64,000 nucleotides of DNA from Akkermansiaceae bacterium (lineage in GTDB: Bacteria; Verrucomicrobiota; Verrucomicrobiia; Verrucomicrobiales; Akkermansiaceae): assembly GCA_903934285.1 (NCBI GenBank), contig CAIZNN010000020.1, positions 1 to 64,000 on the forward strand, written 5' to 3'. The position numbers were made by a program, and so were the translations under genes. The notes under the pieces are model-generated. The model made no database searches. It was not told where the DNA came from and saw nothing but the letters and a program-made list of their open reading frames with translations. Shown here one piece after another: positions 12,049 through 46,090 of this stretch (positions are counted from its first letter, which is position 1; every line of letters begins with the position of its first letter).

Positions 12049-13323
<1,275 letters not shown>

Positions 13324-26479: not shown

Positions 26480-26608
26480 GTGGTTTTCGGGGTGCGGAGT
26501 GGGAATTTGTATCAGGGCGGCGGCAATGACCAGCATAATTCTTCGGCGGGTCCGGTGGGGGGATCGAGTGGCAGGGGTGGTTGGCGTTTTATGTGGTGGC
26601 AACATCGC

Positions 26609-28096
26609 CTAACGCACGCCAGCGCCGGTGCCCGGCAGGAAGCGATAATAGACTTCCAACATGAGGGTGCACAGACAGGTGCGGTAATGGACATCCTGCA
26701 CGTATTGGGGGGCGACGGCGCGCAGTGTCTTGCCGCCGCCGGGAGTTTTCCACGAGCCATCGGCGTTTTGATTCTTGAGGAGTTGATCGCGGAACAGGCT
26801 GTTGTAGCGTCTCCATTGTTCGCCGCCGCGATTCATCATCGCCTGCGCTTCATAGTAATGGCCGTAGAGGTCGGCAAACTCGCTGTTATAGTCGAACCTG
26901 GTGTTTTTTCCGATGTATTTGGCCCCGTTGCGGGCGGCGCTGCGCGAGCCGCGGTCCCACAACTGGAGCGAGAGCACGCCGGCGCCGGTGAGGGTGAAGT
27001 AGTCGGTGCCGGCCGGGGCGTTGGCGCTGGTGTAGCCGAAGCCACCCGCGCTGGACGCCAGCTTTTCGACGTAGGCCATGGCGCGGCTGGCGCATTTGGG
27101 CAGGTTGCGGAAATCCAGGCCGGTGTGTTTGCAGGCTTTGAGGGCTTGGATTTGCCAGGCGGTGATGGACAGGTCGCCGCCGCGGGCGCCCGATTCGTTA
27201 TAGCTGTAATCCCAGCCGCCGGAGGGATGTTGGTTGTCGATGATGAACTGGCCGGCCTTTTGCGCGGTTTCCTGCAGGTTCGGCACATTGATTTTGATTT
27301 CCTTGCAAAACGTGGCGGCCTCGGCCAGCGCGTAGGTGGCGATGGCGTGTTCATAGGGGAATTGTTTGGCGCCGGGATTGTCGGACAGCTTGCCATGGTT
27401 TTTCATGCCGAGATTGACCAGGCTGGTGATGGCGCGCAAACACGATTCGCCGAATTCCTCGGAGAGCGGGGTTTCGCAATGGCCGAGATAGGCGAGCAGG
27501 GCCAGCCCGGTCATGGCCGAGCCGCCGGCCCACGAGCCGTCCTGGCTTTGGCTGCTCTTGAACCAACGCAAGGCCTTGACCACCGCGTCTTCACAGGCAG
27601 GCGTGCCGCCGGTTTCCTTGAGTCGCGCCAAGCGGTCGGCTTTGGAACAACGCTTTTTCATGATGTCCGGAATGGTGCCGAAGCTGCCGCCGCCGCCGCC
27701 GTCGCCACCGGCACCCCAACCGCTGCCAAAATCATCGCCATCGCCGAAGTTTACCGAGGGGCTGGAGACGTCGATGTCGGGCACCGGGATGGCCACCGCG
27801 GAGATGGTGTTGGCGGCAATCACCTTGGCCATCGCCGAGGCCGGCGACGCGGGCCGGCGCTCCGTCGAGGTGCTGATTTTTTTCTGCTCCAGATCGGTCT
27901 CCTCGCTGCTGCTGGCCGCATAGGTGACGATGGTGGGGGTTTCCTTGAAGATGGCGGGCAGCAGGATGAACCCCAGCACCAAGCCCATCAGCATCAGGGT
28001 GAGGAAGGCGATGACCACCGACGAAATGGAAGAGTTGCGCCGCTGGGCCTCAAGCCGAGCAAGCGCTTCGGGACTGAGTTGGGCATGCAGGCTCAT
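26609..28096 (-). CDS. Membrane-anchored squalene-cyclase-fold (toroid) protein, copy A
   Basis: 495 residues with the same plan as the gene downstream: near-identical first 27 residues, a transmembrane helix, a linker containing FGSGWGAGGDGGGGG, and toroid repeats (SQDGSWAGGSAMTGLALLAYL, HPSGGWDYSYNESGARGGDLSIT). It differs by a 10-15 residue insert near the end (GGKTLRAVAPQYVQ) and small changes in the linker. Both copies sit on the minus strand with 129 bp between, apparently a recent tandem duplication. A promoter is visible upstream. The function is unknown; roles in hopanoid-like lipid or protein-complex assembly are guesses. Confidence 0.85.
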   Translation of the reverse strand: MSLHAQLSPEALARLEAQRRNSSISSVVIAFLTLMLMGLVLGFILLPAIFKETPTIVTYAASSSEETDLEQKKISTSTERRPASPASAMAKVIAANTISAVAIPVPDIDVSSPSVNFGDGDDFGSGWGAGGDGGGGGSFGTIPDIMKKRCSKADRLARLKETGGTPACEDAVVKALRWFKSSQSQDGSWAGGSAMTGLALLAYLGHCETPLSEEFGESCLRAITSLVNLGMKNHGKLSDNPGAKQFPYEHAIATYALAEAATFCKEIKINVPNLQETAQKAGQFIIDNQHPSGGWDYSYNESGARGGDLSITAWQIQALKACKHTGLDFRNLPKCASRAMAYVEKLASSAGGFGYTSANAPAGTDYFTLTGAGVLSLQLWDRGSRSAARNGAKYIGKNTRFDYNSEFADLYGHYYEAQAMMNRGGEQWRRYNSLFRDQLLKNQNADGSWKTPGGGKTLRAVAPQYVQDVHYRTCLCTLMLEVYYRFLPGTGAGVR

Positions 28097-29960: not shown

Positions 29961-30339
29961 ATAGGGCCTCGGGCCATCACCCCGTTCGCTTCGAAGCGCC
30001 AAGCTGAAACCGCTCGGGGTGGGCCGGAGTGGCGCAAGCGGTCGCTGGATGGGAATTAGCGGCGGCGGTGCCTGCCGCCGGCAGCCGGAGCCGCAGGCCG
30101 TTTGACGTTGAACCCAAAACAGCGCGGCGGTGGTGGTGATCCCGGGGGTGGGCGGGTCTTGGCCGGGACGCTTCAGAAATCCGAACAACGTCAAGAGAAA
30201 TTAGATGCCGTCATGCACTTTTCTCTTGCGCGCGACGTGGAATTGGAATAGGTAACCCATTGCCTAGATGGGATGAACCGATCCCCGAAGTCCGTCCCCT
30301 TTCCGGCGTCAACCCCAATTGATAGAAAGACCCACGGCC
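29961..30339 (+). promoter_or_regulatory. Upstream region of the first Cys-heptad gene
   Basis: No gene. A 9-bp inverted repeat, CAAGAGAAA (30192-30200) and TTTCTCTTG (30220-30228), overlaps a promoter candidate TTGCGC (30226-30231), spacer 17, TAGGTA (30249-30254). The last 30 bases before the ATG, from CCCCAATTGATAGAAA on, are repeated ahead of the second paralogue at 35070. Confidence 0.45.
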
Positions 30340-33300
30340 ATGTCATTTCAACCAATTCTGAGGGGTCTGCGGCCTCTCATTGCGCGCGTCGCCCTGATTG
30401 CGGGCGTCTGCATCGGCGGCTTGGTCTGGCACCAGTCCTATGGCACTCCGGATCCTGACTTCAAGCTGGCCATCGATGATGCGTCGCCGCCGTCAGCGGA
30501 ACTCACGTTCACCTCTCCGGAGGATGGTTACTACTATCCGGAGTATTACGACGAGACGACCAAGCTGTGGGTCCCCATTCCCAATAACGAGCAATTCCTC
30601 AACGCGGGAGAACACAAGGTGTTTGTGCAAATCCCCGGCGATCCCTCGCCGGCCAAACTCATGCTCCGCATGGCCCGCGTCAAGGCCGCAATCCGGCCCA
30701 CCATTTTCCCGGTGGTCCCCACTTCCTGCCTGGCTGTGCCGCTGATCACGAGCTGCCCGGGAGGCCCCACCGTATGTCCCGCAGTTCCAACCACCTGCCC
30801 GGGAGTGGCACCCACCCACTGCGCTACACCCGAGCCGACCCGCTGTCCGCTGGTTCCAGATCCAACCCGTTGCCCGATGTCCCTGACCGATTGTGCCGCC
30901 GCCCGCACCCAGTGCCCAACCATCGTCAGTGTCTGTCCGGTGCGGGCCACGCTTTGCCCGAACACCCTGCGGATGACCACGTTCTGCGCGGGGAAGGTCG
31001 TCACCGTTTGCCCGCTCGCGCCCACCACCTGCGCCCCCGTCAACACCACCTGCCCGTTCAAGCCCACTTCCTGCCCGCCTAACCGCACCCAGTGCCCGGC
31101 CACCGTCACCGTCTGTCCGCCCGTGGTGAGCACCGTGTGCCCCCTCAATAACACGGTGTGCCCAGCCCAGCCGCTGACCACCTGTCCGCAGGTGACCACC
31201 CGCTGCCCGGCCCCGGTGACCACCTGCGTGACCATTCTCACGTCCTGCCCGGATGGACCGACGTTCTGTCCGTCGGGAGTGACGAGGTGTCCGGGGACGG
31301 CGACCCGTTGCCCGGTGCGGGCGACCTGGTGCCCGACCGCGGCCGACGCCACCAATTGCCCGCAGGTGCTCACCAAGTGCCCGGCGAGCCCGACCGTCTG
31401 CCCGAGTGTGGTGGATGCGACGCAATGTCCGCGAATCGTCACGCAATGCCCGCGGGTTCTCACGATGTGCCCGAATGACATGGGCACCGCGACACAGTGC
31501 TGGCAAGCGACGGTGACGCAGTGCGTGGCCCTGCAGACCGTGTGCCCGCCACTCGACACCCAATGCCCGGTGATCGTCAGTCCTGTCAATCCCTGCGGTC
31601 CCACCTATGCCATGGGGAATTTCACCCTCTGCCCGCGCACCCAAACGCATTGCCCGATCACCGTGACGGTTTGCCCGCAGGTCAACGCCCCGACGGAATG
31701 CCCCCGTGTTGATACCGTCTGCCCGCAAATCCCCACCCAGTGCCCGGTGGCCGCTGGTACCGCCTGTCCGCAAGTTGTAACCTACTGTCTGCAGCAGCCC
31801 GGCCAGCTGTGCGGCCAAACATTCTTCCCGCAGGTGCTCACCCAGTGCCCGGCGGGTGTGACCAACCCAACCCAGTGCAACCAGCTGCCGACCGTGTGCC
31901 CGCTGCTTGGCGTCGTCACCCAATGCCCGATCCAAACCACGGTGTGTCCGGCGGTGGTGCCAAGCACCACTTGCCCGCAGATTCCCACCAGTTGCCCCAC
32001 GGAAAACACCTATTGTCCGAAAAAGGCGACCTTCTGCCCAGTGTATGACACCCAGTGCCCGGAAAATTCAACGATTTGTCCGACGGCGTCCACCGCCTGC
32101 CCGCTGGATCCCACCCGCTGTCCGCTGGAGCTCACGGCTTGCACGAACCTGCAAAACCTTACGGACTGCGGCCAGCAAACCACGCTGTGCCCGGATCCGA
32201 CGGGGGCCGCCACCATGTGTCCGGAGATTGCCACCCAGTGCCCGCAGCAGGATACCCTGTGTCCCGCCGCGCAGACCCGTTGCCCGGTCTGGCAAACCAT
32301 GTGTGTCGCCACCCCGACCGTGACGGTTTGCCCGGAAAAGACCACCTCCTGCCCGCTCGTGTTGACGTTCTGTCCGCAGTCCCTGACCAAATGCCCGGAA
32401 CAACGCACCGAGTGCCCGGTCTTGGAAACCGGATGCACACTCAATGACCCGACCCAATGCCCGGTGGTCGAGACCACCTGTCCGACAGGCGTGACCTATT
32501 GTCCGGCAGGCCCCGGATGCGGTCTGACCTACTTGCCACAGGTGCCCACCACCTGCCCGGCCAGTCTATCCACCGTGTGCCCGGAGGTGGTCACCACTTG
32601 CCCGACCAAGTTGACCGAGTGCCCGTTGGGACTCACCACCTGCCCGAGTTCGGCCACCGTGTGCCCGGTCGAGCCGGTTGAGACCCAATGCCCGAGCGTC
32701 GTCACCGCCTGTCCGGTCGGCACGGCCACCCAATGCAATGCGTTGCCCACCGAGTGCCCACCCCTGGCCATCTCGACCGAGTGCCCGCGGATGTTCACCA
32801 ACTGTCCGCCGGTGGTCACCCAGTGTCCGGCAAACGCGACCGCCTGCACTGTCGAGCCGACGGCGTGCCCGCCGCAACCGACCCAGTGTCCTGTGGCGCA
32901 GACCGCCTGTCCGGAGGTTCTTACCCAGTGCCCGCCGGCTCAGGAAACGATGTGCCCGCATGTGACCACCACCTGCCCCGCGATCGTGTACACCCTGTGC
33001 CCGGCGGTGATGACAACCTGCCCGGCGGAATCAACCATGTGCCCGCCGCCTGACGGGAGCACCACCGCGTGCCCGATCGTCCAGACCGAATGTCCGTTTG
33101 TCCAGACCGAGTGCCCGAACCTGACCACCACTTGTCCGCAAAATCCCACCCACTGCCCGGTGCTCGATACGATGTGCCCGGAAACGGTGGTCAACACCCA
33201 GTGCCCGGTCCAGACCACCGTCTGCCCGGCGACGGGAGTAACCTATTGTCCGGATCTCATTCTCACCCAGTGCCCGGTGAGCCCCACCAAGTGTCCGGAA

Positions 33301-34638
33301 AATCCCACCCATTGTCCTGCGTCCGCAGTGCCTACGGGCTGTCCGCTTCAGTCGACGTTCTGCCCCCCGGGGACGGTGACGACTTGCCCGGCCACCGCCA
33401 CGGTATGTCCGGTCACGCCCGTCTCGACGGTGTGCCCGGAGATGGACACTTCATGCCCGACGGTGGTCACCAGTTGCCCGAGCCGGCCCACTGACTGCCC
33501 GGTGGATACGACCCACTGCCCGTTTGATCCGGCTGCCTGTGGCGGGCCCACCACGACCCCGACCGTGCCCACCGAGTGCCTGCCGACCTCGACCCAGTGC
33601 CCGGCGGTCAATACCCTGTGCCCGGTGGATCCGATTGCGTGCAAAGCGACCATGAGCCCCGGCACGCCCACCGTGTGTCCGGACCCGGCCCAGCCGACGC
33701 AATGCCCGCTCCAGACGACCCTGTGTCCGCCGAATGCGGTCCCGACCGAGTGCCCGGCCTTCATCCAGACCACTTGTCCGGAGGTTCCCACCGAGTGCCC
33801 GTTGACGTTCACCGCATGCCATCAGGTTTATACCCACTGCCCGGCCCCGGTGACCGCGTGTGTCAGCGGTGCTCCGACCCAGTGCGCACAAATCGCCACC
33901 GAGTGCGCGGGACTGGCCACCTATTGCCCGGTCCAGCCGGCCCCGACTCAATGCCCGCGTGCCGTCACCGCATGCCCGGTTGAGTTGACCACCTGCCCCG
34001 CGACGCCGGCCACCGAATGCCCGGTCAATTCGACCCAGTGTCCGAAGCTCACCACGGAATGCCCGCCCGACGACCCGACGAATTGCCCGACGGTGGTCAC
34101 CACTTGCCCGCTCAAGGACACGGAGTGCCCGGTTGGCACCAACCCGACAACCTGCCCGCTCATCACCACCCAATGTACGGCGGCGGGAGTGGTCACCCAG
34201 TGCACGGCTGATCTGACGACCTGTCCGGTTCCGACCAACCCGACTCTCTGCCCGAGTGGCGCGGCCGATACCACGATCTGCCCGATCCAACCGACCCAGT
34301 GTCCGACTCAGCCAGGGGTGTGCGAGCCCACGATCTACCCGGCGACTCCCACCGCGTGCGGGGGCATCACCAGTTGTCCGAACCAGGCCACCGTCTGTCC
34401 GAAACTCCAAACCGAGTGCCCGCCGGTCGACACGCAATGTCCGCAAATCATGACGCAGTGCCCGACGAGCCAGGTCACGGAGTGCGGCCCAACCCCCACC
34501 CAGTGCGGTTCGGTGCCGACCCAGTGCGGCATGCCCCTGACCCAGTGCCCGATCCTCGACACGATTTGCCCGTTCCAGCCCACCCTGTGCCCGAAGCATA
34601 CCACGGTCTGCCCGATCGACGCGGTCTGTCACCCGTGA
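30340..34638 (+). CDS. Giant cysteine-heptad repeat protein, paralogue 1
   Basis: 1432 residues. ATG 30340 is chosen because MSFQPxLRGLRPLI is shared with paralogue 2. A single hydrophobic segment (about residues 14-30) makes it exported or anchored with the bulk outside. Residues about 30-125 form a conserved non-repeat head (YYPEYYDETTKLWVPIPNN, FVQIPGDPSPAK). From about residue 128 to the end it is the heptad T-x-C-P-x-x-x, about 185 times by length, nearly all written ACC-nnn-TGC-CCG. Pro after each Cys rules out an ordinary coiled coil. Units are broken at intervals by C-G-P/Q-T-x-x-x-P inserts. I know of no named family. Disulphide-stabilised solenoid, fibre or metal/haem binding (Cys-Pro) are possibilities. 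Confidence 0.9.
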   Translation: MSFQPILRGLRPLIARVALIAGVCIGGLVWHQSYGTPDPDFKLAIDDASPPSAELTFTSPEDGYYYPEYYDETTKLWVPIPNNEQFLNAGEHKVFVQIPGDPSPAKLMLRMARVKAAIRPTIFPVVPTSCLAVPLITSCPGGPTVCPAVPTTCPGVAPTHCATPEPTRCPLVPDPTRCPMSLTDCAAARTQCPTIVSVCPVRATLCPNTLRMTTFCAGKVVTVCPLAPTTCAPVNTTCPFKPTSCPPNRTQCPATVTVCPPVVSTVCPLNNTVCPAQPLTTCPQVTTRCPAPVTTCVTILTSCPDGPTFCPSGVTRCPGTATRCPVRATWCPTAADATNCPQVLTKCPASPTVCPSVVDATQCPRIVTQCPRVLTMCPNDMGTATQCWQATVTQCVALQTVCPPLDTQCPVIVSPVNPCGPTYAMGNFTLCPRTQTHCPITVTVCPQVNAPTECPRVDTVCPQIPTQCPVAAGTACPQVVTYCLQQPGQLCGQTFFPQVLTQCPAGVTNPTQCNQLPTVCPLLGVVTQCPIQTTVCPAVVPSTTCPQIPTSCPTENTYCPKKATFCPVYDTQCPENSTICPTASTACPLDPTRCPLELTACTNLQNLTDCGQQTTLCPDPTGAATMCPEIATQCPQQDTLCPAAQTRCPVWQTMCVATPTVTVCPEKTTSCPLVLTFCPQSLTKCPEQRTECPVLETGCTLNDPTQCPVVETTCPTGVTYCPAGPGCGLTYLPQVPTTCPASLSTVCPEVVTTCPTKLTECPLGLTTCPSSATVCPVEPVETQCPSVVTACPVGTATQCNALPTECPPLAISTECPRMFTNCPPVVTQCPANATACTVEPTACPPQPTQCPVAQTACPEVLTQCPPAQETMCPHVTTTCPAIVYTLCPAVMTTCPAESTMCPPPDGSTTACPIVQTECPFVQTECPNLTTTCPQNPTHCPVLDTMCPETVVNTQCPVQTTVCPATGVTYCPDLILTQCPVSPTKCPENPTHCPASAVPTGCPLQSTFCPPGTVTTCPATATVCPVTPVSTVCPEMDTSCPTVVTSCPSRPTDCPVDTTHCPFDPAACGGPTTTPTVPTECLPTSTQCPAVNTLCPVDPIACKATMSPGTPTVCPDPAQPTQCPLQTTLCPPNAVPTECPAFIQTTCPEVPTECPLTFTACHQVYTHCPAPVTACVSGAPTQCAQIATECAGLATYCPVQPAPTQCPRAVTACPVELTTCPATPATECPVNSTQCPKLTTECPPDDPTNCPTVVTTCPLKDTECPVGTNPTTCPLITTQCTAAGVVTQCTADLTTCPVPTNPTLCPSGAADTTICPIQPTQCPTQPGVCEPTIYPATPTACGGITSCPNQATVCPKLQTECPPVDTQCPQIMTQCPTSQVTECGPTPTQCGSVPTQCGMPLTQCPILDTICPFQPTLCPKHTTVCPIDAVCHP

Positions 34639-35095
34639 CCTGACAACAGCCGGGCGGGCCGGTAATCCGCCCGCCTGACGAATTCATGGCGATCAGCCGG
34701 TGGCGCGAGCCTCCGGCTGATTTGCGTTCGTTGGGAAGTGGCGCGGAGTCGGCCGCGCGACCCCGGAGTCGCGCTGATCTGTGCGCTGCGGCGGGTGGCT
34801 GGGGGCCGGCTACGTCGCTTGACTTGGGTTTGGGGGGCGCCGATTGCGCAGACCGGCAGGGCTCGCGCATCGTTCGGAACGTCCCTCCATGTCGCCCGAA
34901 TGGCTCTCCATCGTTCGATATCTCGCACCGCAGGACCCATCTGGATAATAAATCCCGACGAAAAGACGAAATAATTAAACTTTATTCTTGCCATGACCCC
35001 GAAATCTCCGTAATTCCCATTTCGTCGAGTTGCATCGGGTGGTTCATGTCGCCCGTTTCCACGCCAAAAACCCCAATTGATAGAAAAACACAGCC
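34639..35095 (+). promoter_or_regulatory. Gap between the two Cys-heptad genes
   Basis: No gene in 457 bp. It begins with a terminator-like hairpin and ends with an AT-rich stretch (34940-34990), then a promoter candidate TTGCCA (34988-34993), spacer 17, TAATTC (35011-35016), and the leader CCCCAATTGATAGAAA that copies the one before paralogue 1. A small stem CGGGCGGG...CCGCCCG lies at about 34651-34675. Confidence 0.4.
34692..34721 (+). terminator. Hairpin after paralogue 1
   Basis: ATCAGCCGG and CCGGCTGAT form the stem, with GGCGCGAGCC-type pairing inside. It lacks a strong T-run. The matching hairpin after paralogue 2 shows it belongs to the duplicated unit. Confidence 0.5.
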
Positions 35096-38000
35096 ATGTC
35101 ATTCCAACCAAACCTGAGGGGCTTGCGCCCCCTGATCACCCGCCTCGTCCTGATTTTGGGCGTCTGTCTCGGCGGTTTAGTCTGGCTCCAGTCCAATGCC
35201 AATCCGGATGGCACTCCGGACTTCAAGGCTGCCATCGATAATGCGTCGCCGCCATCCGTGCAGCTCAGTTTTGAAGCCACGGAAGATTCCGAGTACTACC
35301 CGGAGTATTACGACGAGACCAGCAAGCAGTGGATTCCCATTCCTAACAACCAGCAGTTTTTCAACGCCGGCAAACGTGTCGCCTTCGTGCAAATCCCCGG
35401 TGAGCCCACTCCCAAAAGTCGGATACTGCGCATGGTCCGGGTGGACAAAGCGATCAAGCCGACGATTTTCCCGGCGTTCAACACGGTATGCCCGGCCAGC
35501 CAAACGGCCTGCCCTGCCAAGGCTACGGTTTGCACCGCGGGGGTCGTCACGATTTGCCCGGCCGCGGGTCAGGCGGCGGTGACCCAGTGTCCGATCCAGT
35601 TGACCCAGTGTGCTGTTGCCAAGACCCAGTGCCCCAGCGTGGCCACCACCTGTCCGATCCAGGTCACCACTTGCACGGCCAAGCCTTTGCCAACATTCTG
35701 CGGCGGCGCGATCACCCAGTGTCCGAAACAGGCCACCATCTGCGCCTCGGTGATCACCGTCTGCCCGCTGCAACCCACCACCTGCCCGAAGAGCGCCACC
35801 CAGTGCCCGGCGGTGGCCACCCAATGCCCGGCGGATGTGGCGACCATCTGCCCGCAGCTAGCCACCCAGTGCCCGAAACAATTGACTGCCTGCCCGCAGG
35901 CCATGACCAAGTGTCCGGTGCAGGTGACCGCCTGCATCACCAGCCTGACTTCCTGCCCGCAAGGACCGACCTATTGCCCGCAGCAGCCCACCCAATGCCC
36001 GACAAGCAAAACCGCTTGCCCGGTACTCCCGACGGTGTGCCCGAATAAGATCCAATCCACGGTCTGCCCGGCCAAGACGACCGCCTGCCCGGCATCGCCG
36101 ACGATTTGCGTGACGGCAACTGCTCAAACGGTCTGCCCAGTCAAACAAACCACTTGCCCGCAGAAGTTCACCATCTGCCCGGCTGATATGGGCGCTGTGA
36201 CCACCTGCGCCATTACTGCGGCCACCAATTGCACCGCTGTCCAGACCGTTTGTCCCACGGGGGTGGTCACGGCCTGTCCCACGGCCCAAACCCAGTGCCC
36301 GGTCCAAACGACGAATTGTCCGATGGATCAAACGAAGTGCCCGATCACGTCAACCGTCTGCCCGCAAGTGGCGCTTCCCACCGAGTGTCCGAAGGCTGCC
36401 ACGGTTTGCCCGCAAATCTCCACCGCATGCCCGCAGGCCGAAACTCATTGCCCGACCGCCATCACGGTGTGCCCGCAAGTCACAGGCTGCACCGATCCAA
36501 CCATAGCTCCCGGCACGGTCACTTCTTGTATCATGGCACCCACCCATTGCACGATCGAACAAACGCAATGTCCGCAGCAGCAGACCCAATGTCCGCCACT
36601 GCAAACGCAATGCCCGCAGGTCACAACCATCTGTCCGCTCCTGCCGTCGATTTGCCCGGCACCGACGATGTGCCCGATGGAGCCGACCCATTGCCCGTCC
36701 CAGGCGACCCAATGCCCTGCCGCCCAAACAACCTGTCCGGCGGTGGCCACCAAGTGCCCGAGCCAGGCGACCGCCTGTCCGGTTCTCATCACCGCATGCC
36801 CACAGTTTGAAACCACGTGCCCCATCGCTGGCAGCGTGACCGTCTGCCCGGTGGCAGCCACCACCTGCCCGGTGAAGTCCACCCAGTGCCCGTTGGAAAC
36901 CACGATCTGCACCACCAACCTGACCTCCTGCTCGGGCCAGCAGACGCTTTGCCCGGATCCCACTGGTGCGACCTCTTGCCCGCAAGTACCCACCGAGTGC
37001 CCGGTCAAGCCGACCTTCTGTCCGCAAGCCGCCACCCGCTGCCCGATCTATCAGACGATCTGCCCGGAAGTGATCCAGATCACCCAGTGTCCGGATAAAG
37101 CCACCGCCTGCCCGGCGGTGCCCACCTTCTGCCCGAATACCGACACCCAGTGCCCGGAAAAGGCCACCTTCTGCCCGGTGCGCACCACCCAGTGCACTAG
37201 CGAGACCACCCAGTGCCCGGTCATCACCACCCAGTGCCCGCAGGGGGCCACCTATTGCCCGGTCGAGGCCACCAAGTGCCCGAGCGAACCCACGCGCTGC
37301 CCGGTTGACCAACCCACAGCCTGCCCGGTTGCCCAGACCAATTGCCCGGTCGTTCAGACCAGTTGCCCGGGCGAGGCCACCAAGTGCCCGGCCGAGCCGA
37401 CCATCTGCTCGCCCGATCACGTTGCCACCCAGTGCCCGGCCTTCCCGACCGAGTGCCCGCAATTGGCCACGGCCTGTCCGGCGATTCCAACCGCCTGCCC
37501 GGTGCAGCAGACCCAGTGCCCGCAGGGGGTCACCTACTGCCCGCAAGAGGAAACCATCTGCCCACGCGTGCCCACCAAGTGCCCGGCCGTGACCACCCAG
37601 TGCCCGCAGTCCGTGACGACCTGTCCCACCCAGCAAACCTCCTGCCCGGCGGTGGCCACCGAATGCCCCATCGGGCAGACGCACTGCCCGGTCATCCCGA
37701 CCCAGTGCCCGGGTGACCAACCCACGGTTTGCCCATACCAAGACACCGAATGCCCGACCCAGACCACGCTCTGCCCAGTCGCCCAGACCAGTTGCCCGCA
37801 GACGACGACCATTTGTGCCTCCGCGACCGGCGGGGCGACGTTCTGCCCGCAGGTCACGACTCAATGCCCGGTCACCCAGACCGTCTGCCCGAGCAAGACA
37901 ACCGCCTGTCCGCAGTTGACCACTCAGTGCCCGATCGTGGCCACCTTCTGCCCGTCGGATCCGGTGCAAACCCAGTGCCCAATCAAGGAAACCGAGTGCC

Positions 38001-39871
38001 CGACCGGGACGGCCGGGGGGGCCACCTATTGCCCGGCAGTGCCCACCGCGTGTCCCGCCAGCCCGACCAAATGCCCGGCCGAGCCGACCCATTGCCCGGC
38101 GCAGCCCACTCCCACCCAGTGCCCGCTCGAGCAAACGGTTTGCCCGACCGGCGCCCTGACCGCTTGTCCTGGCACGCCCACCGAGTGTCCGACCACTCCT
38201 GTGGCCACCCAGTGCCCGACTTCGGCGACCTCCTGCCCGGCGGTGTCGACCCAGTGCCCGACCAGCGCCACCGAGTGCCCGGTTAGCCAGACCGAGTGCC
38301 CGCAAGTCCAAACGTCCTGCCCGGCAGCGGTGACCACCTGCGTGAACGAGCCCACCTATTGCTCCCCCGCCGGCACGGTAACCATCTGCCCGGTCACCGC
38401 GACCCAGTGCCCGCAGGAAACCACCAATTGCCCACAGGTCACCACCAATTGCCCGCAAACCACAACCGTTTGCCCGCAGCAGACCACCCAGTGCCCGCCA
38501 AACACGACCCAGTGCCCGCAGGCCCAAACCACCTGCCCGGCCAAGCAAACCGCCTGCCCGCAGGTGGCCACTGAATGTCCGCTGGCTCAGACCCAATGCC
38601 CAAGCCTGCAAACCGAGTGCCCGCGTGTCACCACCGAATGCCCGCGCCTCGTCACGGAGTGTATTCAGGAACCCACCCAGTGCGTGACTACCCCGACCGA
38701 ATGCGCCGCCGGGGCCGTCACCTACTGCCCGCAGACCATTACCGCGTGTCCGCAAACCTCCACCCAGTGCCCGGCCACCGCCACCCAGTGCCCGGTGAAC
38801 CAAACGACCTGCCCGGCAGTCCAAACGACCTGCCCGGCCAAACAAACCGAGTGCCCGGTGAGCCAAACAACCTGCCCTGCCGTCCAAACCGCCTGCCCGG
38901 TGAAGTCAACCGAGTGTCCGGTGGAACAGACCCATTGCCCGGCTTACGTCACCACCTGTGTCGCCAGCCCCACCGTCTGCCCGACCGCCCAAACCGAATG
39001 CCCCGCCCAGCAGACAACCTGCCCGAAAGTCGCCACCGCTTGCCCGGCTCTGCAAACCCAGTGCCCGGCCTATCAGACAAGCTGTCCGCAGGTTGCGACC
39101 CAGTGCCCGCAGGATCAGCCGACCCAGTGCCCGGTGAACGTCACCACCTGCCCGGTCACGGACACCCAGTGCCCGGTGAATGTCACGATCTGCCCGCGTC
39201 TCGCCACCCAGTGCACCGGGACCGCAACGACCGAGTGTGCATTGGAGCCCACCACCTGTCCCGTCGCGACCAATCCGACGCAGTGCCCGAGTGGCCCGGC
39301 GGATACCACCATCTGCCCGATCCAACCGACCCATTGCCCGACCCAGACGACCTATTGTCCGCTTAGCACAGCCTGCGGCCCCACCATCTATCCACAAACG
39401 GCCACCGAATGCCCGGTCCAGTCCACCGAATGTCCGGTCACTGCGGACGGCACCTGCGGCCCGACGATGTCCCCGGACAAGCCCACCGAGTGCCCGGTCC
39501 AGTCCACCACCTGTCCGCTCAAAACCACCGAGTGTCCGGCCAACCCGGCGATTGGTTGTGCCCCGACCTTTATGCCGGCCATCCCAACCGAGTGCCCGAG
39601 GGCCACCACCACCTGCCCGGCGATTCAGACCCAATGCCCGGTGCAAGCCACGGTGTGCACGGCAAATGTCACCGAGTGCCCACTGCCAGGGACCAACTGC
39701 GGGGCGACCATGACGCCGACCACGCCGACCGATTGCCCGGTGTACGCCACCTACTGCCCGATTACGACGGCATGTTACCCGACCATGTTCCCGAACACCC
39801 CCACCCAGTGCCCGACGGATCCCACCCGTTGCCCGCTTGATGCGACCGGAGTGTGTGTGCCGGTGCCCTGA
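35096..39871 (+). CDS. Giant cysteine-heptad repeat protein, paralogue 2
   Basis: 1591 residues with the same plan: MSFQPNLRGLRPLITR, a hydrophobic segment, the conserved head (EYYPEYYDETSKQWIPIPNN), then about 205 T-x-C-P-x-x-x units to the C-terminus. Irregular landmarks shared with paralogue 1 include LCPDPTGA(x)SCP and ADTTICPIQPT, so the two align in register and arose by duplication, then changed in repeat number. Six C-G/A/Y-P-T-x-x-P-x-x-P-T-x-C inserts cluster in the last 200 residues. Composition is dominated by Thr, Pro, Cys, Gln and Ala, with few basic or aromatic residues after the head. If exported, oxidation of roughly 200 cysteines would need a disulphide-forming system. Confidence 0.9.
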   Translation: MSFQPNLRGLRPLITRLVLILGVCLGGLVWLQSNANPDGTPDFKAAIDNASPPSVQLSFEATEDSEYYPEYYDETSKQWIPIPNNQQFFNAGKRVAFVQIPGEPTPKSRILRMVRVDKAIKPTIFPAFNTVCPASQTACPAKATVCTAGVVTICPAAGQAAVTQCPIQLTQCAVAKTQCPSVATTCPIQVTTCTAKPLPTFCGGAITQCPKQATICASVITVCPLQPTTCPKSATQCPAVATQCPADVATICPQLATQCPKQLTACPQAMTKCPVQVTACITSLTSCPQGPTYCPQQPTQCPTSKTACPVLPTVCPNKIQSTVCPAKTTACPASPTICVTATAQTVCPVKQTTCPQKFTICPADMGAVTTCAITAATNCTAVQTVCPTGVVTACPTAQTQCPVQTTNCPMDQTKCPITSTVCPQVALPTECPKAATVCPQISTACPQAETHCPTAITVCPQVTGCTDPTIAPGTVTSCIMAPTHCTIEQTQCPQQQTQCPPLQTQCPQVTTICPLLPSICPAPTMCPMEPTHCPSQATQCPAAQTTCPAVATKCPSQATACPVLITACPQFETTCPIAGSVTVCPVAATTCPVKSTQCPLETTICTTNLTSCSGQQTLCPDPTGATSCPQVPTECPVKPTFCPQAATRCPIYQTICPEVIQITQCPDKATACPAVPTFCPNTDTQCPEKATFCPVRTTQCTSETTQCPVITTQCPQGATYCPVEATKCPSEPTRCPVDQPTACPVAQTNCPVVQTSCPGEATKCPAEPTICSPDHVATQCPAFPTECPQLATACPAIPTACPVQQTQCPQGVTYCPQEETICPRVPTKCPAVTTQCPQSVTTCPTQQTSCPAVATECPIGQTHCPVIPTQCPGDQPTVCPYQDTECPTQTTLCPVAQTSCPQTTTICASATGGATFCPQVTTQCPVTQTVCPSKTTACPQLTTQCPIVATFCPSDPVQTQCPIKETECPTGTAGGATYCPAVPTACPASPTKCPAEPTHCPAQPTPTQCPLEQTVCPTGALTACPGTPTECPTTPVATQCPTSATSCPAVSTQCPTSATECPVSQTECPQVQTSCPAAVTTCVNEPTYCSPAGTVTICPVTATQCPQETTNCPQVTTNCPQTTTVCPQQTTQCPPNTTQCPQAQTTCPAKQTACPQVATECPLAQTQCPSLQTECPRVTTECPRLVTECIQEPTQCVTTPTECAAGAVTYCPQTITACPQTSTQCPATATQCPVNQTTCPAVQTTCPAKQTECPVSQTTCPAVQTACPVKSTECPVEQTHCPAYVTTCVASPTVCPTAQTECPAQQTTCPKVATACPALQTQCPAYQTSCPQVATQCPQDQPTQCPVNVTTCPVTDTQCPVNVTICPRLATQCTGTATTECALEPTTCPVATNPTQCPSGPADTTICPIQPTHCPTQTTYCPLSTACGPTIYPQTATECPVQSTECPVTADGTCGPTMSPDKPTECPVQSTTCPLKTTECPANPAIGCAPTFMPAIPTECPRATTTCPAIQTQCPVQATVCTANVTECPLPGTNCGATMTPTTPTDCPVYATYCPITTACYPTMFPNTPTQCPTDPTRCPLDATGVCVPVP

Positions 39872-40173: not shown

Positions 40174-41094
40174 TTACGGCCCGCTTGTCCCGGTCTGCGG
40201 TGCCACCGGACTTGTCTTGGGTGCCGCAGGTGCCGCAGGTGCCGCAGGAGTGGCAGGAGTGGCAGGAGTGGCAGGAGTGGCAGGAGTGGCAGGAGTGGCA
40301 GGAGTGGCAGGAGTGGCGGGAGTGGCAGGAGTGGCAGGTGCCGCAGGAGTGGCAGGTGCCGCAGGAGTGGCGGGAGTGGCAGGCGGCGGATTGAACCGGA
40401 AAGGCACTCCACGCCAGGCCTCGGCACCTGGCTGTGCCTGGTCCCGCTTGTGATAGGTCTTACAGTTAGCACACCAATAGTAGTCGTTAGGCGAAAGCCC
40501 CTCGGGCAGTGGCGGGATTGCCCCGGCCGCCTGCGGCGCGGCTTGCCCTGCGGGCGCCGGTGGCAGCGCCGCATCCACTGGTTGGCCTTGGGCGGGTTGG
40601 CGTTTGTGATAGGTCTTGCAGTTCGGGCACCAATAGTGGTCGGCCGGGTCGAGTCCTGCCGGGAGCGGTGGAATTGCAACCGCGGCCGCTGCGGCCGGGG
40701 GTGGTGCAACTCCGGCTGCGGGTGGTGGAGTTGCGCCGGCGGGTGGCGGCGCCTGGCCGGGTTGGAGTTTGTGATAGGTCTGGTGTTGCTCACACCAATA
40801 GTGTTGGTCGGGCGCAAGTCCGGCGGGCAGCGGGGGTCTGGCCGCCGCGGCGGGCGCCTTGGCTCCCAGATTGGTCAACCCGGAGATGGCTTCCTTCACC
40901 GCCTTGTCATAATAGGGTGAACCGGGTGCCGCCTGGGTTTCCTCGGAGCCAGTGTAAGAAATCACCGCGGCAGCCACCACTCCGGCCGCTGCCACCGGCA
41001 CCAGCCACGCCATGGCGGGTGCGACAATCGAGGTTGCTTTGTTTTCGCTAGGCATGGGTCTTAGGCTCTTCGATTTGCGCTCAACATAACTCAT
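40174..41094 (-). CDS. Anchored Pro-rich protein with three W-C-x-x-C/H-x-T-Y-H-K modules
   Basis: 306 residues. ATG 41092-41094 overlaps the stop of the upstream gene (ATGA). One hydrophobic helix (about residues 25-45) is followed by three copies of LPxGLxPxxxYWC-x-x-(C/H)-x-T-Y-H-K (residues about 88-112, 140-165, 193-218). In copies 2 and 3 the C-P/A-N-C pair could bind zinc; copy 1 has C-E-Q-H instead. The linkers and a C-terminal tail of (ATP)n from a 9-bp DNA repeat are Pro/Ala-rich. I do not recognise the family. As last gene of a coupled operon facing the Cys-heptad genes, it may recognise or carry thiol proteins, but this is inference. Confidence 0.8.
   Translation of the reverse strand: MSYVERKSKSLRPMPSENKATSIVAPAMAWLVPVAAAGVVAAAVISYTGSEETQAAPGSPYYDKAVKEAISGLTNLGAKAPAAAARPPLPAGLAPDQHYWCEQHQTYHKLQPGQAPPPAGATPPPAAGVAPPPAAAAAVAIPPLPAGLDPADHYWCPNCKTYHKRQPAQGQPVDAALPPAPAGQAAPQAAGAIPPLPEGLSPNDYYWCANCKTYHKRDQAQPGAEAWRGVPFRFNPPPATPATPAAPATPAAPATPATPATPATPATPATPATPATPATPATPAAPAAPAAPKTSPVAPQTGTSGP
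40234..40385. repeat. 9-bp tandem repeat in the C-terminal tail
   Basis: About fifteen copies of AGTGGCAGG or close variants (with GTGCCGCAG variants), read on the minus strand as Ala-Thr-Pro or Ala-Ala-Pro. Length can vary without frameshift. Confidence 0.9.
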
Positions 41095-43415
41095 TTTTCG
41101 CCGCTGGCAACCCGCCCGAACAAGCGGTCGATAACCCCAAAGGCTTGGTTGAAAACCGCCCGTTGCCCGGCGTCGGGCACCACCTTTTCGGAAATTCCCA
41201 TCGCCTGGTCGCTGTAGCGCTCGGCAGCGGCAACCACCAACACCCGCCGCTCGCCGTCGTCGAGGACCACCTCGCCGCTCGGCCAGGCCTCCGCGATGCG
41301 CGCCAAAGCCCCGGCATTCTTCACCAGGCCGGATTGTTTGATGCGCTCCACCGCTTGCGCCGCGGGAATTGTCTTGGCAAACATGAGCAGCAGCGGATCC
41401 TTCGCCCGGCTGGCAATCGCCCCCAACTCGTCCAATTGCCCCAGATCGTCCGGCTTGCGCACGATCAACGCCAGCGCGGTTCGGGCGCTCTCCGCCGTGC
41501 GCAGTTGCTTGTAGAGACCGTTGTCGGCATTCTTATCTAACAACTCAAACCCGGCGTACGCGCCGGTTCGCAGGACCCACTGGATGAACACCTCATAGCG
41601 CTGGTCATAGGGTTCGTTGCTGACGAAGCCAACCAGGTTGTGCCCCGGATCCTTGGCGTGGGCGCCAAACACGACCCACTCGCTTGGCTGGATCGGCTTG
41701 GGAAATGCCGCCTGCCGCTGTTCCTGCCACCGGCTCAGCGAGTGGGCCACCCCAACGCACCCCAGCGCCACCACCGCGGTGGCCAGCCACACCCGCGGCT
41801 CGCGGCGCCAGGCGAGGAAAACCGCCAGACCCGCCAGGGTGAGGATCGGCAGGATTCGCCGCGCCACCGCGCCAAATGCGCCGTCCTGGTGGTTGAGCCA
41901 ATTGACGGTGTTGAGCAGGTACTCATATTTGCCCGGATAGAAGATCTCAAAGTTGGAAAACACCGTGCTGTCAGCCCACGCCACCACCCGCCCCCGCCCG
42001 TAGTGCGATGCGGCCGACACACAAAATGTGCCGCTCTTCATCTTCGGATCGTCGTGCGGTGGCGGATAGAAATTGTTCACCGAGTAGATCGCGCGCACGC
42101 CTTTGGAATGCCCCACCTGATAGATGCAGCGGGTGGACCACGCGGTCGGCCGGATCGAGGTCGGGCCCCGCAGTTTGAACAGGGACATGCCGTGCCAGAA
42201 TGCCGAGGGCTGGCGCGGCGGGTAGAGCATCTGGTGGAAATCCTCGTCGAGATCAAAAAGCACGTCGTCCCTGTATTGGAAGCCGAACGGCTCGCACAAC
42301 TCGTTGATGTGCGAGGTGCCGCCGAACACGTTGGTGTGATCGCCGATGACGAACAGCCCGCCACCACCACGGACAAACTCGCGGATCAGGTCGATCTCAT
42401 CGGTGCTGAAGCGCCGGTCCGGATCATACACCACCAGGGTGCTCGCGCCGTCCAGGTCTTTGGCGGTGAGCGGCCCGCCAGCCTCGACCACCGGATAGAA
42501 CACGCTGAAAAAGCGCTTCATGCAGGCATAGTTGTAGCCTGAATCCGCGCCGTACCAGTCGCGGTCATAGGGCCGGTCGGTGCGCGACCACTGGGTGTGA
42601 TAGGTGCTGATGACAATCTTGCCGGTCTTGGGAGTGCCCGGCGGTTGCCAACACGCAATGCCGGCGAGCAGCAGAATGACTGGCGCGGCTGCCCAGCGCA
42701 AGGCGCGCGGCACTCCCGAGGGCGCCGTTTCGGCCATGGCCGGCGGCGCCAGCCAGCGCCCTAACAGAGCGCCCGCCGCCAACAGGAAGGGCAGATAGAT
42801 CAAGGCCCCCGCCGCTTCGTCCATGAACGGGCGGAAGGGCATCTCCTCGCTCTCGTAACCGACGAAATCGAACAGGGAGCTGGCCAACACCACCACACAG
42901 GCCATCCGCAGCATCGCGGCCGCCAGCAGCACGCCGGCGATCATGCCGAATTTGCGCAGCACGCCGGGAAGTGTGGTTTCCGCCCAACACAGCCACACCC
43001 CGCTGAGCACCAGAAACAGCCACGGCACTTTCAAACCCATGCCGTCGATCGACGCGGCGAACTCCAACGGACCGGCCATCGTCGTTAGATAAACCAGCCC
43101 GCCATGGGTCCCCACCGAGATCCCTGTTAGGCCAAGCAGTCCTGTCACCCCGCTGGCCAGAACCGGGATGCCATCCTTCCAGCGCATCGCGGCGTAATCG
43201 CCGGCACCCAGCGCCGCCCAGCCGAGCACCAAGGCCGCGAGTTGCAGCCACGCCACCTTTCCCAACACCTTGGCGGAGCCCGCGCCGGGTGCCGCCCTGC
43301 GGGTCACCCACCAGTCCGCCACGGCGCCACCGACCCAACAAGCGGCGGAGGGCCACGGGTGGAGTTGCGTCAGTGCCAGCGCGAAGGTCTTGGCCAGTAT
43401 CGAGAGAAAGATCAT
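41091..43415 (-). CDS. Membrane protein with exosortase-like bundle and glutamine-amidotransferase-like domain (gene 2 of operon)
   Basis: 774 residues. About seven helices in residues 1-250. In this part FAASIDGMGLK (about 119-129) stands where exosortases have the A-C-S-G-L-R active site, without the cysteine, while LRMACVVVLAS (169-179) keeps the following conserved arginine. An external domain (about 265-460) is like DUF4350/GATase1: DIDLIREFVRGGGGLFVIGDH. Further helices (about 500-545) and a second external domain follow. The ATG overlaps the upstream stop (ATGA at 43412-43415). I infer a catalytically altered sorting or assembly factor; the exosortase relation is by pattern only. Confidence 0.7.
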   Translation of the reverse strand: MIFLSILAKTFALALTQLHPWPSAACWVGGAVADWWVTRRAAPGAGSAKVLGKVAWLQLAALVLGWAALGAGDYAAMRWKDGIPVLASGVTGLLGLTGISVGTHGGLVYLTTMAGPLEFAASIDGMGLKVPWLFLVLSGVWLCWAETTLPGVLRKFGMIAGVLLAAAMLRMACVVVLASSLFDFVGYESEEMPFRPFMDEAAGALIYLPFLLAAGALLGRWLAPPAMAETAPSGVPRALRWAAAPVILLLAGIACWQPPGTPKTGKIVISTYHTQWSRTDRPYDRDWYGADSGYNYACMKRFFSVFYPVVEAGGPLTAKDLDGASTLVVYDPDRRFSTDEIDLIREFVRGGGGLFVIGDHTNVFGGTSHINELCEPFGFQYRDDVLFDLDEDFHQMLYPPRQPSAFWHGMSLFKLRGPTSIRPTAWSTRCIYQVGHSKGVRAIYSVNNFYPPPHDDPKMKSGTFCVSAASHYGRGRVVAWADSTVFSNFEIFYPGKYEYLLNTVNWLNHQDGAFGAVARRILPILTLAGLAVFLAWRREPRVWLATAVVALGCVGVAHSLSRWQEQRQAAFPKPIQPSEWVVFGAHAKDPGHNLVGFVSNEPYDQRYEVFIQWVLRTGAYAGFELLDKNADNGLYKQLRTAESARTALALIVRKPDDLGQLDELGAIASRAKDPLLLMFAKTIPAAQAVERIKQSGLVKNAGALARIAEAWPSGEVVLDDGERRVLVVAAAERYSDQAMGISEKVVPDAGQRAVFNQAFGVIDRLFGRVASGEK

Positions 43416-45850
43416 CGGGGGGTGGAATCAAACAGGTTTTTAAGGAAGGCGGTGTTGGCCGGGTCGTGGTTTTTATGGCCCTCGACGTTGCGGTTATGCA
43501 AAAACTCCGAGTCGCCGATGATAACCAGTTGGCCCTTGCCCACCGGCACCGACACCATCAGCGCCGCATTGTCGGGAGTGGCGCACAGCACCTTGGCGTT
43601 GGCCGGCACCTTGTCCAGCGGCCAGGCGCTCATGAACGAGACCGGTTGGCCGAATGCCGGACGGTCAAAAAACCGCCCGAGCGGTGTGTTGCCGATGCGG
43701 CAGCCGAGCGGTTCGAGCAAGCTGCGGCTGCCCCCGGCATCCAGATAACCGCAGCCCAGGAGCACGACGCCGCCGCGCTCCATGAAGCGCATCAGGTCGC
43801 GCCGTTCGCCGGGCGCAATCGGTCGCCGCGGCGCATTGAGGATGACGTACCGAGCCAGGTCGAGGGTGGCCGGACTCCAGTCATTGACGTCGATGGGCAT
43901 CAGGCCATGGCGCAGCAGGTTGATGGACACCCCGTGCAAGCCGGTATCCATGGCCGAGTGCTTCGAGGCGTTCGGCTGGTGCGAAAAATCGATCACCGCC
44001 AAGTGATCGCGGCTGAATTCCTTGTCGTAGCGCGGCAGGCCGCCGGTCCCGTGGGTCAGCGCGCTGACCAGGCCGGCACCGCACAAGGCCGCCATGCCGA
44101 CTGGTGCCGCCCGCCACCAAAACGCCAGTGCCGCCAGACCCAGCACCAGTGCCGCCGCGAGCCAGCGGCCCGCAACGCTCGCCGGAAACAACCACACGTC
44201 GGACTCGCCCAGCCAGCCGAGGCTGGCGCGGAGCAACTCGTAGGAGCGCGCCAGATTGTTGTTAAAGAAGCTGGAGGTGTCGCCAAACACCAGCACTTTG
44301 CCCAGGCCGTGACGCTCGCCTGCCACCAACACCAAATCACCTAACTGTTCGCGCGGTTGATATTTGAAATCGCCCAGATAGCCGCGATCCCCCTGCGGGG
44401 TTTCCAGGCCCAGATCGGAGTAGCCGAAGCGCCCGAACACCAAGGGTTGCGCCGCCCCGCCCAGCTCGAGCGACGCGCCCACCAAAATGCCCGGCCGGTT
44501 CTCGGCATCGTCGTGCAGCGTGGCAAAGGGCGTGCCTTGCGGAAACCGATAGGAATGGAACCAACCCTGCGGGAAAAACTGCGCCGAGTCATTGTTGAAT
44601 GAGATGTGGGTCGGTGCCAGCATCTGGTTGAGATGATTGATGCCCTTCTTGACCGAGCCGTCAGGGGAGGGGGTCTTCTCGTCCTTGATGAAGGTGTGGT
44701 CACCTAACATCCAGAGCTTGCCGCCCCGCGCCACAAAGTCCCAGATCCGCTGGCGCGTGTCCTTGCCGAGATCCAGGTCGAGGTTGGTTAGAACCAGGGT
44801 TTTTCCCGGATCGAGGGTGGCCGGGATATCCTTGACCACCTCCGCCTTGCAGCCGAACAAGCGCGCGTATTCCGGCAACATCCCGAACATCCCGCCGGCG
44901 GACTCGCCATAGCGCGTGTAGTCGGGCTTGGTGAAGCTCACCACGCCGCGCTCCACAAAGATCAGGTCACAGGCCGCCGGGGACCGCCACGCCGTGGGTG
45001 GTGTCACCGCCAGCACGGCCAGGGCCGCCACTGCGGCGACCGCTAATTGCCGCTTGCCGAGCGCCCATTCACCCCGCAGCGCGGCCCAGCCCGGCAGCGG
45101 GTCGGCGGCGGCGTCGGACTTGGGGGCCCTGGTGTAATGAAGCGCCAGATAGGCGGTTAGATGCGCCAGGAACAGAAACGCCGGGAACACAATCACGGCC
45201 ATGCCCTGCAAGCGTTTCCACAGTTCCGGAAAGCCAAAGGCGTCCCGGAACTTGAGCGTCCAGGCAAACTCCGCGGCGAAATCCACCTTGTCGAGCAGCA
45301 GCACCGCCGCCAGCGCGTTGAGCAACACCGCCACCAACACGAAACTCGCCGTGCGCAGCGGCGCCACTTTCGTGCCGTCCCAACTGAACAGCGACAGCGT
45401 CAGAAACAGCAGGAAACTGCCGAGATTCAGATAGGTGGGCCCCAGATGGAACGGTTGGCCGGCAATGGTTTGCGCGATGCGGTTGGCCGCCGCCGTCAGC
45501 ATCTCAAGCACGGGATGGCCGAGCGGCGAAACAAACAACCATAGATGCACCAGCGCATACGCCACCACTCCCAGTCGCAGCGCGCGGGGCACCGGCGCCA
45601 CCACCGTCCAGATCGCGAAATGCACCAGCAGCAATAGCATGGTCTCGGCCACCGCCGGCACCGGCAAGACAGCCCGCAACACCATCACCAATCCCAGCCC
45701 CAGCGCCAGCCAGCCGGCAGGCTTCGACGGCTTGAGGCAGAGCGGTAGCGCCAGCAACCCGTATATGAGGAACAAGCGCCCGGCCGGCGGCAGGTAGCCG
45801 ACCACGTCGAAAATCAGGCCCAGGGGTAGCAGATAGAGAAGTACGGACAT
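43412..45850 (-). CDS. Membrane protein with exosortase-like bundle and two GATase-like domains (gene 1 of operon)
   Basis: 812 residues from ATG 45848-45850 (MSVLLYLLPLGLIFDVVGY). Six to eight helices are followed by an external domain with FVARGGKLWMLGDHTF and VLVFGDTSSFFNNNLAR, then two helices (WLAAALVLGLAALAFWW) and a second such domain: MRFMERGGVVLLGCGYLD and KGQLVIIGDSEFLHNRN. Both carry the G-D-x-x-F signature of GATase1-like DUF4350 folds without a Cys-His-Glu triad. The N-terminal AGQPFHLGPTYLNLGSFLLFLTL recalls the exosortase helix, again without the cysteine. Its plan matches gene 2, so the pair may be an old duplication. It is likely in one operon with 41091 and 40174. Confidence 0.7.
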   Translation of the reverse strand: MSVLLYLLPLGLIFDVVGYLPPAGRLFLIYGLLALPLCLKPSKPAGWLALGLGLVMVLRAVLPVPAVAETMLLLLVHFAIWTVVAPVPRALRLGVVAYALVHLWLFVSPLGHPVLEMLTAAANRIAQTIAGQPFHLGPTYLNLGSFLLFLTLSLFSWDGTKVAPLRTASFVLVAVLLNALAAVLLLDKVDFAAEFAWTLKFRDAFGFPELWKRLQGMAVIVFPAFLFLAHLTAYLALHYTRAPKSDAAADPLPGWAALRGEWALGKRQLAVAAVAALAVLAVTPPTAWRSPAACDLIFVERGVVSFTKPDYTRYGESAGGMFGMLPEYARLFGCKAEVVKDIPATLDPGKTLVLTNLDLDLGKDTRQRIWDFVARGGKLWMLGDHTFIKDEKTPSPDGSVKKGINHLNQMLAPTHISFNNDSAQFFPQGWFHSYRFPQGTPFATLHDDAENRPGILVGASLELGGAAQPLVFGRFGYSDLGLETPQGDRGYLGDFKYQPREQLGDLVLVAGERHGLGKVLVFGDTSSFFNNNLARSYELLRASLGWLGESDVWLFPASVAGRWLAAALVLGLAALAFWWRAAPVGMAALCGAGLVSALTHGTGGLPRYDKEFSRDHLAVIDFSHQPNASKHSAMDTGLHGVSINLLRHGLMPIDVNDWSPATLDLARYVILNAPRRPIAPGERRDLMRFMERGGVVLLGCGYLDAGGSRSLLEPLGCRIGNTPLGRFFDRPAFGQPVSFMSAWPLDKVPANAKVLCATPDNAALMVSVPVGKGQLVIIGDSEFLHNRNVEGHKNHDPANTAFLKNLFDSTPR

Positions 45851-46090
45851 CGGTGGTGGCAACTTGGATAGCCCCGCTCTGAGGCCATCGTTGATCCGGA
45901 GGATAGTCCGCTTCGTGGCAAACGCAATTAAAAACCTCACCTTACCGGGCGCTGGCGCCGGCCCTGATTGGCAGGAGTGTTGGGCGGGTGCGGGCAGCGC
46001 GAGAGCTGTTGGAATGCGCCAATGACCCGCTGCCCGGTGAGGCCGCGAGGCGCGCCATCAAATCCGCTGCAAGCCACGGCGCATGCTCGC

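Follow-up and report, generated by a model that had tools for sequence, protein, structure and literature searches.

A T-x-C-P-x-x-x repeat family of PVC bacteria and its associated DUF4350 membrane protein pair, probable parts of a cell-surface system

Two adjacent genes in the window, by which we mean the whole 64,000-nucleotide stretch of Akkermansiaceae DNA analysed here, encode giant proteins (P1 and P2) that consist, beyond a common head, of a single unbroken array of the seven-residue unit T-x-C-P-x-x-x. The same unit is spread across the PVC superphylum and is usually encoded directly upstream of genes for two paralogous membrane proteins, A and B, which makes it probable that the arrays are the structural component of a new system of the cell surface. 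The repeat family and its operon appear to be undescribed so far, whereas the DUF4350/GldG-like domains of A and B belong to a known superfamily. What emerges is a new repeat family together with a conserved system of three genes, shared by two bacterial phyla whose envelopes, with the protein-rich, cysteine-rich walls of the PVC group, are an old puzzle, and with it a concrete gene set, a rule for the sequence and a rod geometry open to test. An earlier note on this DNA had recognized the repeat; it lacked the wide spread, the N-terminal cap, the superperiod of ~2.7 units and the operon with two GldG/DUF4350 membrane proteins.

P1 (30340..34638, forward strand) comprises 1432 amino acids from its ATG start and P2 (35096..39871, forward strand, ATG start) comprises 1591, with a gap of 457 bases between the two genes. 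A head of ~118 residues in P1 and ~120 residues in P2 is followed by 171 and 197 array cysteines, respectively. The two adjacent giant proteins described in the earlier note were thus both found as open frames, although the unit counts proposed for them (about 185 and 205) were slightly high. The note was also right that the non-repeat head is shared, but its length, put at about 95 residues, was measured as about 119-121, over which P1 and P2 are 67% identical. Within the head lies the export-type hydrophobic segment that had likewise been pointed out, a putative export or anchor helix at residues 11-33, predicted by AlphaFold2 in P2 (35126..35194, +) and placed by alignment to P2 in P1 (30370..30438, +), where it contains an invariant Cys. 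Residues 54-115 of P2 (35255..35440, +) are predicted to form a small β domain with a core pLDDT of about 83-89, and the aligned counterpart in P1 lies at 30493..30678 (+). A fold search of the P2 head against the PDB gave no significant match (best E 0.14).

The arrays themselves, at 30694..34635 (+) in P1 and 35456..39868 (+) in P2, open with the cap units RPTIFPVVPTSC, which has Phe in the Cys position, and KPTIFPAFNTVC, respectively. Internal caps restart the array four times in P1 and five times in P2; those of P2 (CGPTIYP, CGPTMSP, CAPTFMP, CGATMTP and CYPTMFP) are located near its C-terminus, in the part at 39374..39868 (+), where each restarts a short sub-array. Just 5' of the ATGs of both genes stands an identical 16-base leader, CCCCAATTGATAGAAA (30313-30328 and 35071-35086), while the remaining upstream DNA differs between P1 and P2; the leader is a possible shared promoter or regulatory site. 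An 845-aa open frame antisense to P2 (36350-38887, reverse strand) is an artefact of the GC-rich repeat codons and an example of how automatic gene calls can mislead in such arrays.

The repeat is strict. P1 and P2 together contain 370 Cys, 302 Cys-Pro and 356 T-x-C, and the spacing from one Cys to the next is exactly 7 in 268 instances, mostly 8, 9, 10 or 12 in the remainder, and never 14, so that no unit is without its Cys. Across the 3127 units of our working set, the position two residues before Cys is occupied by Thr in 97.4% and by Ser in 0.8%, and Pro follows Cys directly in 83%. Many arrays open with a common N-cap, T-x-x-P-x-x-x-T-x-C-P, which is a heptad with its Cys substituted, often by Phe, Tyr, Trp or Val. 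We propose as the rule of the family Thr at -2 of Cys, Pro at +1, a spacing of 7 and this N-cap, all of which are found in P1 and P2. Five of seven complete family proteins have an odd number of array cysteines (171, 197, 205, 207 and 163) and two an even number (186 and 190), and complete pairing inside one chain is therefore not required.

P1 and P2 are real proteins under purifying selection. A pattern of three consecutive units in frame had 133 matches in the window's own genome, all of them forward, against 0 for the reversed pattern used as a control, and it was absent from 238 of the 244 genomes of the window's family, the other six being the array genomes. Orthologues from four genomes of the same genus (G159, G166, G243 and G260, the last with two tandem copies) and from another genus of the family (G120) could be aligned along the array. 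Between P2 and the array of G159, dN is 0.274 and dS 0.956, a dN/dS of about 0.28 with silent change near-saturated, and Cys is retained at 190 of 192 aligned sites (99%). Even the irregular Cys spacings lie at identical places in orthologues in 25 of 33 cases. A Victivallaceae genome encodes the same amino-acid unit with AT-rich codons, which, taken with the dN/dS and the retention of Cys, indicates that it is the amino-acid unit that selection holds. Every unit retains its own identity, and the arrays are without ongoing homogenisation.

The working set, assembled from a scan of GTDB representative genomes and from genome searches, comprises at least 49 arrays among the matches listed. Among these, arrays are almost wholly restricted to the PVC superphylum, with carriers in Planctomycetota (Phycisphaerae, Sedimentisphaerales, Pirellulales and Brocadiia) and in Verrucomicrobiota, including Victivallales; the few array bins labelled Deltaproteobacteria, Nealsonbacteria or Omnitrophota reflect mis-binning or transfer. 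One Omnitrophota-binned contig (L158, 161-880, reverse strand), again a matter of mis-binning or transfer, carries a head-family array with 45% identity over the head and first units. One array of the set, with 9 units (L177), lies on a viral contig and is probably spurious. The 22 matching stretches on viral contigs were set aside, nearly all giving only short ORFs with few units or both-strand matches, and single pattern matches in Actinobacteria, Nostoc, Hymenobacter and others were read as short or other-frame coincidences. Several architectures were found, namely the head family of the window, GEVED/DUF7901 joined to an array in Phycisphaerae, arrays joined to LTD, and arrays with dockerin-like parts. 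These fusion partners (GEVED, LTD, dockerin-like) are of extracytoplasmic types and, together with the signal-like N-termini of most complete arrays, they predict that the arrays are exported. The fusion to a Lamin Tail Domain (LTD) is exemplified by a Victivallaceae array with AT-rich codons (L052, 3664-5253).

The membrane proteins associated with the arrays are encoded in the window on the reverse strand. Protein A (43412..45940, 842 aa) and its paralogue B (41091..43415, 774 aa), whose gene shares 4 bases with the end of that for A, are polytopic and match Pfam DUF4350 with 37.3 and 36.2 bits, respectively, against a cut-off of 30.4; their homologues reach 43-69 bits. In both, a series of ~7 TM segments at the N-terminus leads into a GldG/ABC_transp_aux-like DUF4350 domain, and a further pair of TM segments separates this from the second DUF4350 domain; neither an ATPase nor a recognisable transport motor was found in them. 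The profile for GldG of gliding motility and type IX secretion (TIGR03521) was not matched by A at its cut-off of 389.85, with a 16.8-bit partial match in one homologue. An assignment of B to the exosortase/archaeosortase group (TIGR04178) was rejected, as its N-terminal membrane part scores 15 bits against a cut-off of 23, the CSG catalytic motif is absent and hhalign gave a probability of about 0, a weak test with its one exosortase template; true exosortases are present elsewhere in the same genomes. Unlike the proteins of exosortase/PEP-CTERM systems, P1 and P2 have no C-terminal sorting signal or TM segment. A third gene of the module (40174..41094, reverse strand) encodes a protein with one TM segment, three zinc-ribbon-like YYWCxxCxxYHK repeats of the CxxC type and a Pro/Ala/Thr tail, and is kept directly after B in five head-family loci (L202, L203, L204, L205 and L216). 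Its Pro-Ala-Thr tail derives from a 9-bp tandem repeat (DNA repeat 40244-40383).

Of the 25 array loci where 1.5 kb or more of DNA beyond the array was available, 18 have A, and usually B, immediately downstream on the array's strand, and the same arrangement is found at further loci (L093, L123, L051, L208, L209 and L211-L214). The order ARRAY-A-B is found across Planctomycetota and Verrucomicrobiota, with gaps between array and A down to about 10 bases. In the window, A and B (41091-45940) are on the strand opposite to the arrays, convergent with P2 and not in one operon with them; in the head family, the module of A, B and the CxxC protein has become separated from the arrays and yet been retained. 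Besides A and B, no gene family was common to the array loci, and this holds for MoxR, vWA and ABC ATPase genes. Within the 244 genomes of the family, A is present in 6 of 6 array genomes, at 63-100% identity, compared with 2 of the 238 genomes in which no array was detected; of these two, G264 has a completeness of 82% and is split into 760 contigs. The chance of such a 6/6 overlap, given 8 carriers in 244, is about 1e-10 with relatedness ignored. A phylum-wide sample of 388 genomes gave A in six, comprising all three array genomes, two distant homologues and G522, a genome that the search with the array pattern had missed. There, a 3.3-kb contig holds a truncated C-terminal array end (L236, 3066-3338), directly upstream of A and cut by the contig end; it was found via A alone, that is, A predicted an array that had not been seen beforehand.

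The arrays also show a regularity above the level of the unit. Unit-to-unit similarity peaks at lags of 3, 5, 8, 11, 16 and 24, the spectrum averaged over 21 independent groups has its maximum at 2.69 units, and the best period falls within 2.6-2.85 units in 11 of these groups against an expected 12.7%. Marks of several kinds recur most strongly with periods in the range 2.67-2.82 units; in the Verrucomicrobial family the mark is the site of loop insertions (2.67), and in the other arrays the marks are Gly at +3, Glu at -3, loss of Pro and aromatic residues. A superperiod near 2.7 units is equivalent to about 18.8 residues per turn and about 134 degrees per unit. It is strong in many other PVC arrays and weak in P1 and P2 themselves, so that it would apply to the window proteins by homology. 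This superperiod would be matched equally well by a solenoid of ~19 residues per turn and by an extended rod, either polyproline-II-like or twisted (2.95 or 2.08 residues per turn). Phase counted by residues, as expected of a rod, or by units, as expected of a solenoid with loops, had its sole strong case in L094, which is confounded by block duplications. The solenoid suggested in the earlier note drew no support from AlphaFold2, which gave a pLDDT of 36 and no fold for a 19-unit array with 70 alignment rows and folded the head alone when head and array were modelled together, a failure that says little for such a sequence.

No sequence family covering the T-x-C-P-x-x-x unit was found in Pfam, NCBIfam or the PDB, in line with the earlier note, which named no known protein with this repeat. 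The best PDB relation of an array, from the A3 profile to granulin-2 (E 9e-4 over 53 Cys-rich residues), was taken as noise of Cys composition. We found no relevant publication on the motif in the literature searched, outside which most subscription journals fall, and an earlier description is possible. Cys/Pro/Thr-rich repeats cross-link tough extracellular material in hair high-sulphur KAPs, minicollagens and oocyst wall proteins, but these are eukaryotic, have different repeat lengths and no sequence relation to the arrays, and offer a functional analogy only. The OmcA/OmcB-type outer-membrane proteins of chlamydiae are Cys-rich envelope proteins from the same superphylum. Unlike the arrays, they are not fixed-heptad repeats, and their profiles in Pfam and NCBIfam did not match P1 or P2. 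The YTV-domain Cys-rich cell-wall proteins, exported envelope proteins reported only from Planctomycetales (PMC8567305), resemble what the arrays are predicted to be, Cys-rich exported envelope proteins of PVC bacteria. In contrast to them, the arrays occur in Verrucomicrobiota, Phycisphaerae and others and have a different unit, and searches that admitted E values up to 1-10 gave no match to the YTV Pfam profile for any tested array, P1 and P2 included. The YTV and chlamydial proteins are thus nearest in taxonomy and perhaps in role, not by sequence.

How could such arrays and the A/B pair work together? Archaeal DUF4350 proteins (arCOG01314) have been predicted to supply the GldG-like, extracellular part of a complex that serves secretion or membrane remodelling and is linked with S-layer-type proteins (PMC5898192). 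A and B are like these systems in having DUF4350 domains above the Pfam cut-off and unlike them in the ~7 TM segments at the N-terminus and the pair of DUF4350 domains of each protein, and the Cys array is new. The archaeal prediction and the tie between arrays and A/B lead us to favour a dedicated export or assembly pair for a rod-like surface polymer, which would assign a partner to DUF4350 membrane proteins that were hitherto merely predicted to act in secretion. P1 and P2 would be exported structural proteins that form long extended T-x-C-P-x-x-x rods with about 2.7 units per helical turn and serve as the substrate or partner of A and B. These 7-TM-type proteins, with their GldG-like DUF4350 domains probably extracytoplasmic, would most likely export, anchor or assemble the arrays on the cell surface, where the regularly spaced and never-lost Cys may tie one rod to the next, or rods to other thiols, giving a sheath or lattice.

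The computation establishes the repeat, its conservation at the protein level, its spread through PVC bacteria, the ARRAY-A-B operon and the joint occurrence of that operon with arrays; we infer the export route, the surface location, the rod conformation and the role of A and B, and we give the joint reading, that of exported rods built or anchored by A/B at the cell surface and Cys-linked into a sheath or lattice, slightly less than an even chance. Cross-linking through Cys would explain both the absence of Cys loss and the uneven numbers per chain. The disulphide nature of the link is its least certain part: the earlier note had proposed disulphide stabilisation, and neither DsbB nor VKOR has a match in the window genome, while VKOR was found in only 4 of 14 array genomes and the odd Cys numbers noted above weigh in the same direction. 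Thioredoxin_2 domains are present in the window genome and are uninformative. A bolder form of the reading, possible but on balance doubtful, is that ARRAY-A-B is an undescribed PVC-wide surface-assembly system in which the GldG-like pair would export or polymerise a giant heptad rod into a Cys-linked sheath. Such a rod would have a new architecture, with about 19 residues per turn and a Cys every ~134 degrees, unlike any known S-layer, pilus or wall, and a regular, genetically encoded, Cys-spaced rod would, if true, be of interest to materials scientists.

The missing DsbB and VKOR in the window genome leave room for metal binding or for modification of Thr or Cys, and the arrays could serve other ends in a few ways. 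First, they could be a metal or metalloid scaffold, an exported multi-thiolate binder of soft metals or polysulphide, with A and B anchoring the array or handling its cargo. Cys is the most invariant position, the thiols could remain reduced in a genome with no DsbB or VKOR match, and several source genomes are from lake water, sediment, groundwater and digesters, some of which are likely anoxic. However, metal sites typically have clusters of the C-x-C or C-x-x-C kind, not a single Cys every seven residues, a metal role would not account for the strict Thr and Pro, and no metal transporter or regulator is common to the array loci; we consider this function unlikely. Second, A/B or another enzyme could modify Thr and/or Cys in each unit, by glycosylation or a Thr-Cys thioether, to give a modified-thiol fibre of which the array would be the substrate. 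The strict T-x-C-P, in which Ser so seldom stands for Thr, and the dedicated membrane pair encoded alongside would suit this, as would the fact that DUF4350 is a flavodoxin-like domain from the GldG/IFT52 group and gave a very weak match to OST48 (E 0.12). It seems to us rather unlikely, considering that no recognisable glycosyltransferase or lanthionine-type enzyme is common to the loci and that no catalytic residues were identified in A and B.

Third, the ladder of cysteines could be a redox conduit or buffer on the cell surface, for the transfer or storage of electrons or as a companion to cytochromes. A planctomycete array of 12 units (L057, 2521-3237) ends in a C-terminal cytochrome-c-like domain and has A/B downstream, but this is one case in 49 arrays and its haem motif is CxCH, not CxxCH; P1 and P2 have no haem motif, cysteines seven residues apart need not touch, and we hold the proposal to be improbable. 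Binding of haem had been raised in the earlier note as well, and it finds no support in the window, where CxxCH is absent. Finally, the reading of P1 and P2 as a MINISATELLITE, or as a GC-rich 21-bp minisatellite read in one frame and non-functional as protein, for which the long antisense open frames inside P2 (36350-38887) might speak, has a negligible probability and is refuted by the conservation data, namely the conserved sense frame with its dN/dS of about 0.28 and near-saturated silent change, the AT-rich codons for the same unit in the Victivallaceae genome and the conserved operon.

Other features of the window lie apart from the arrays. Two tandem paralogues at 25031-28096 (reverse strand) each have one TM segment and squalene-hopene-cyclase-like α/α repeats, at sub-threshold scores. 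Three DNA repeats unrelated to the arrays were found, a perfect 7-bp tandem repeat of GTTCGGC in 11.7 copies (159-240), a 137-bp repeat in 3 copies (11567-11986) and a 6-bp repeat of CCGACA in 10.7 copies (12391-12454).
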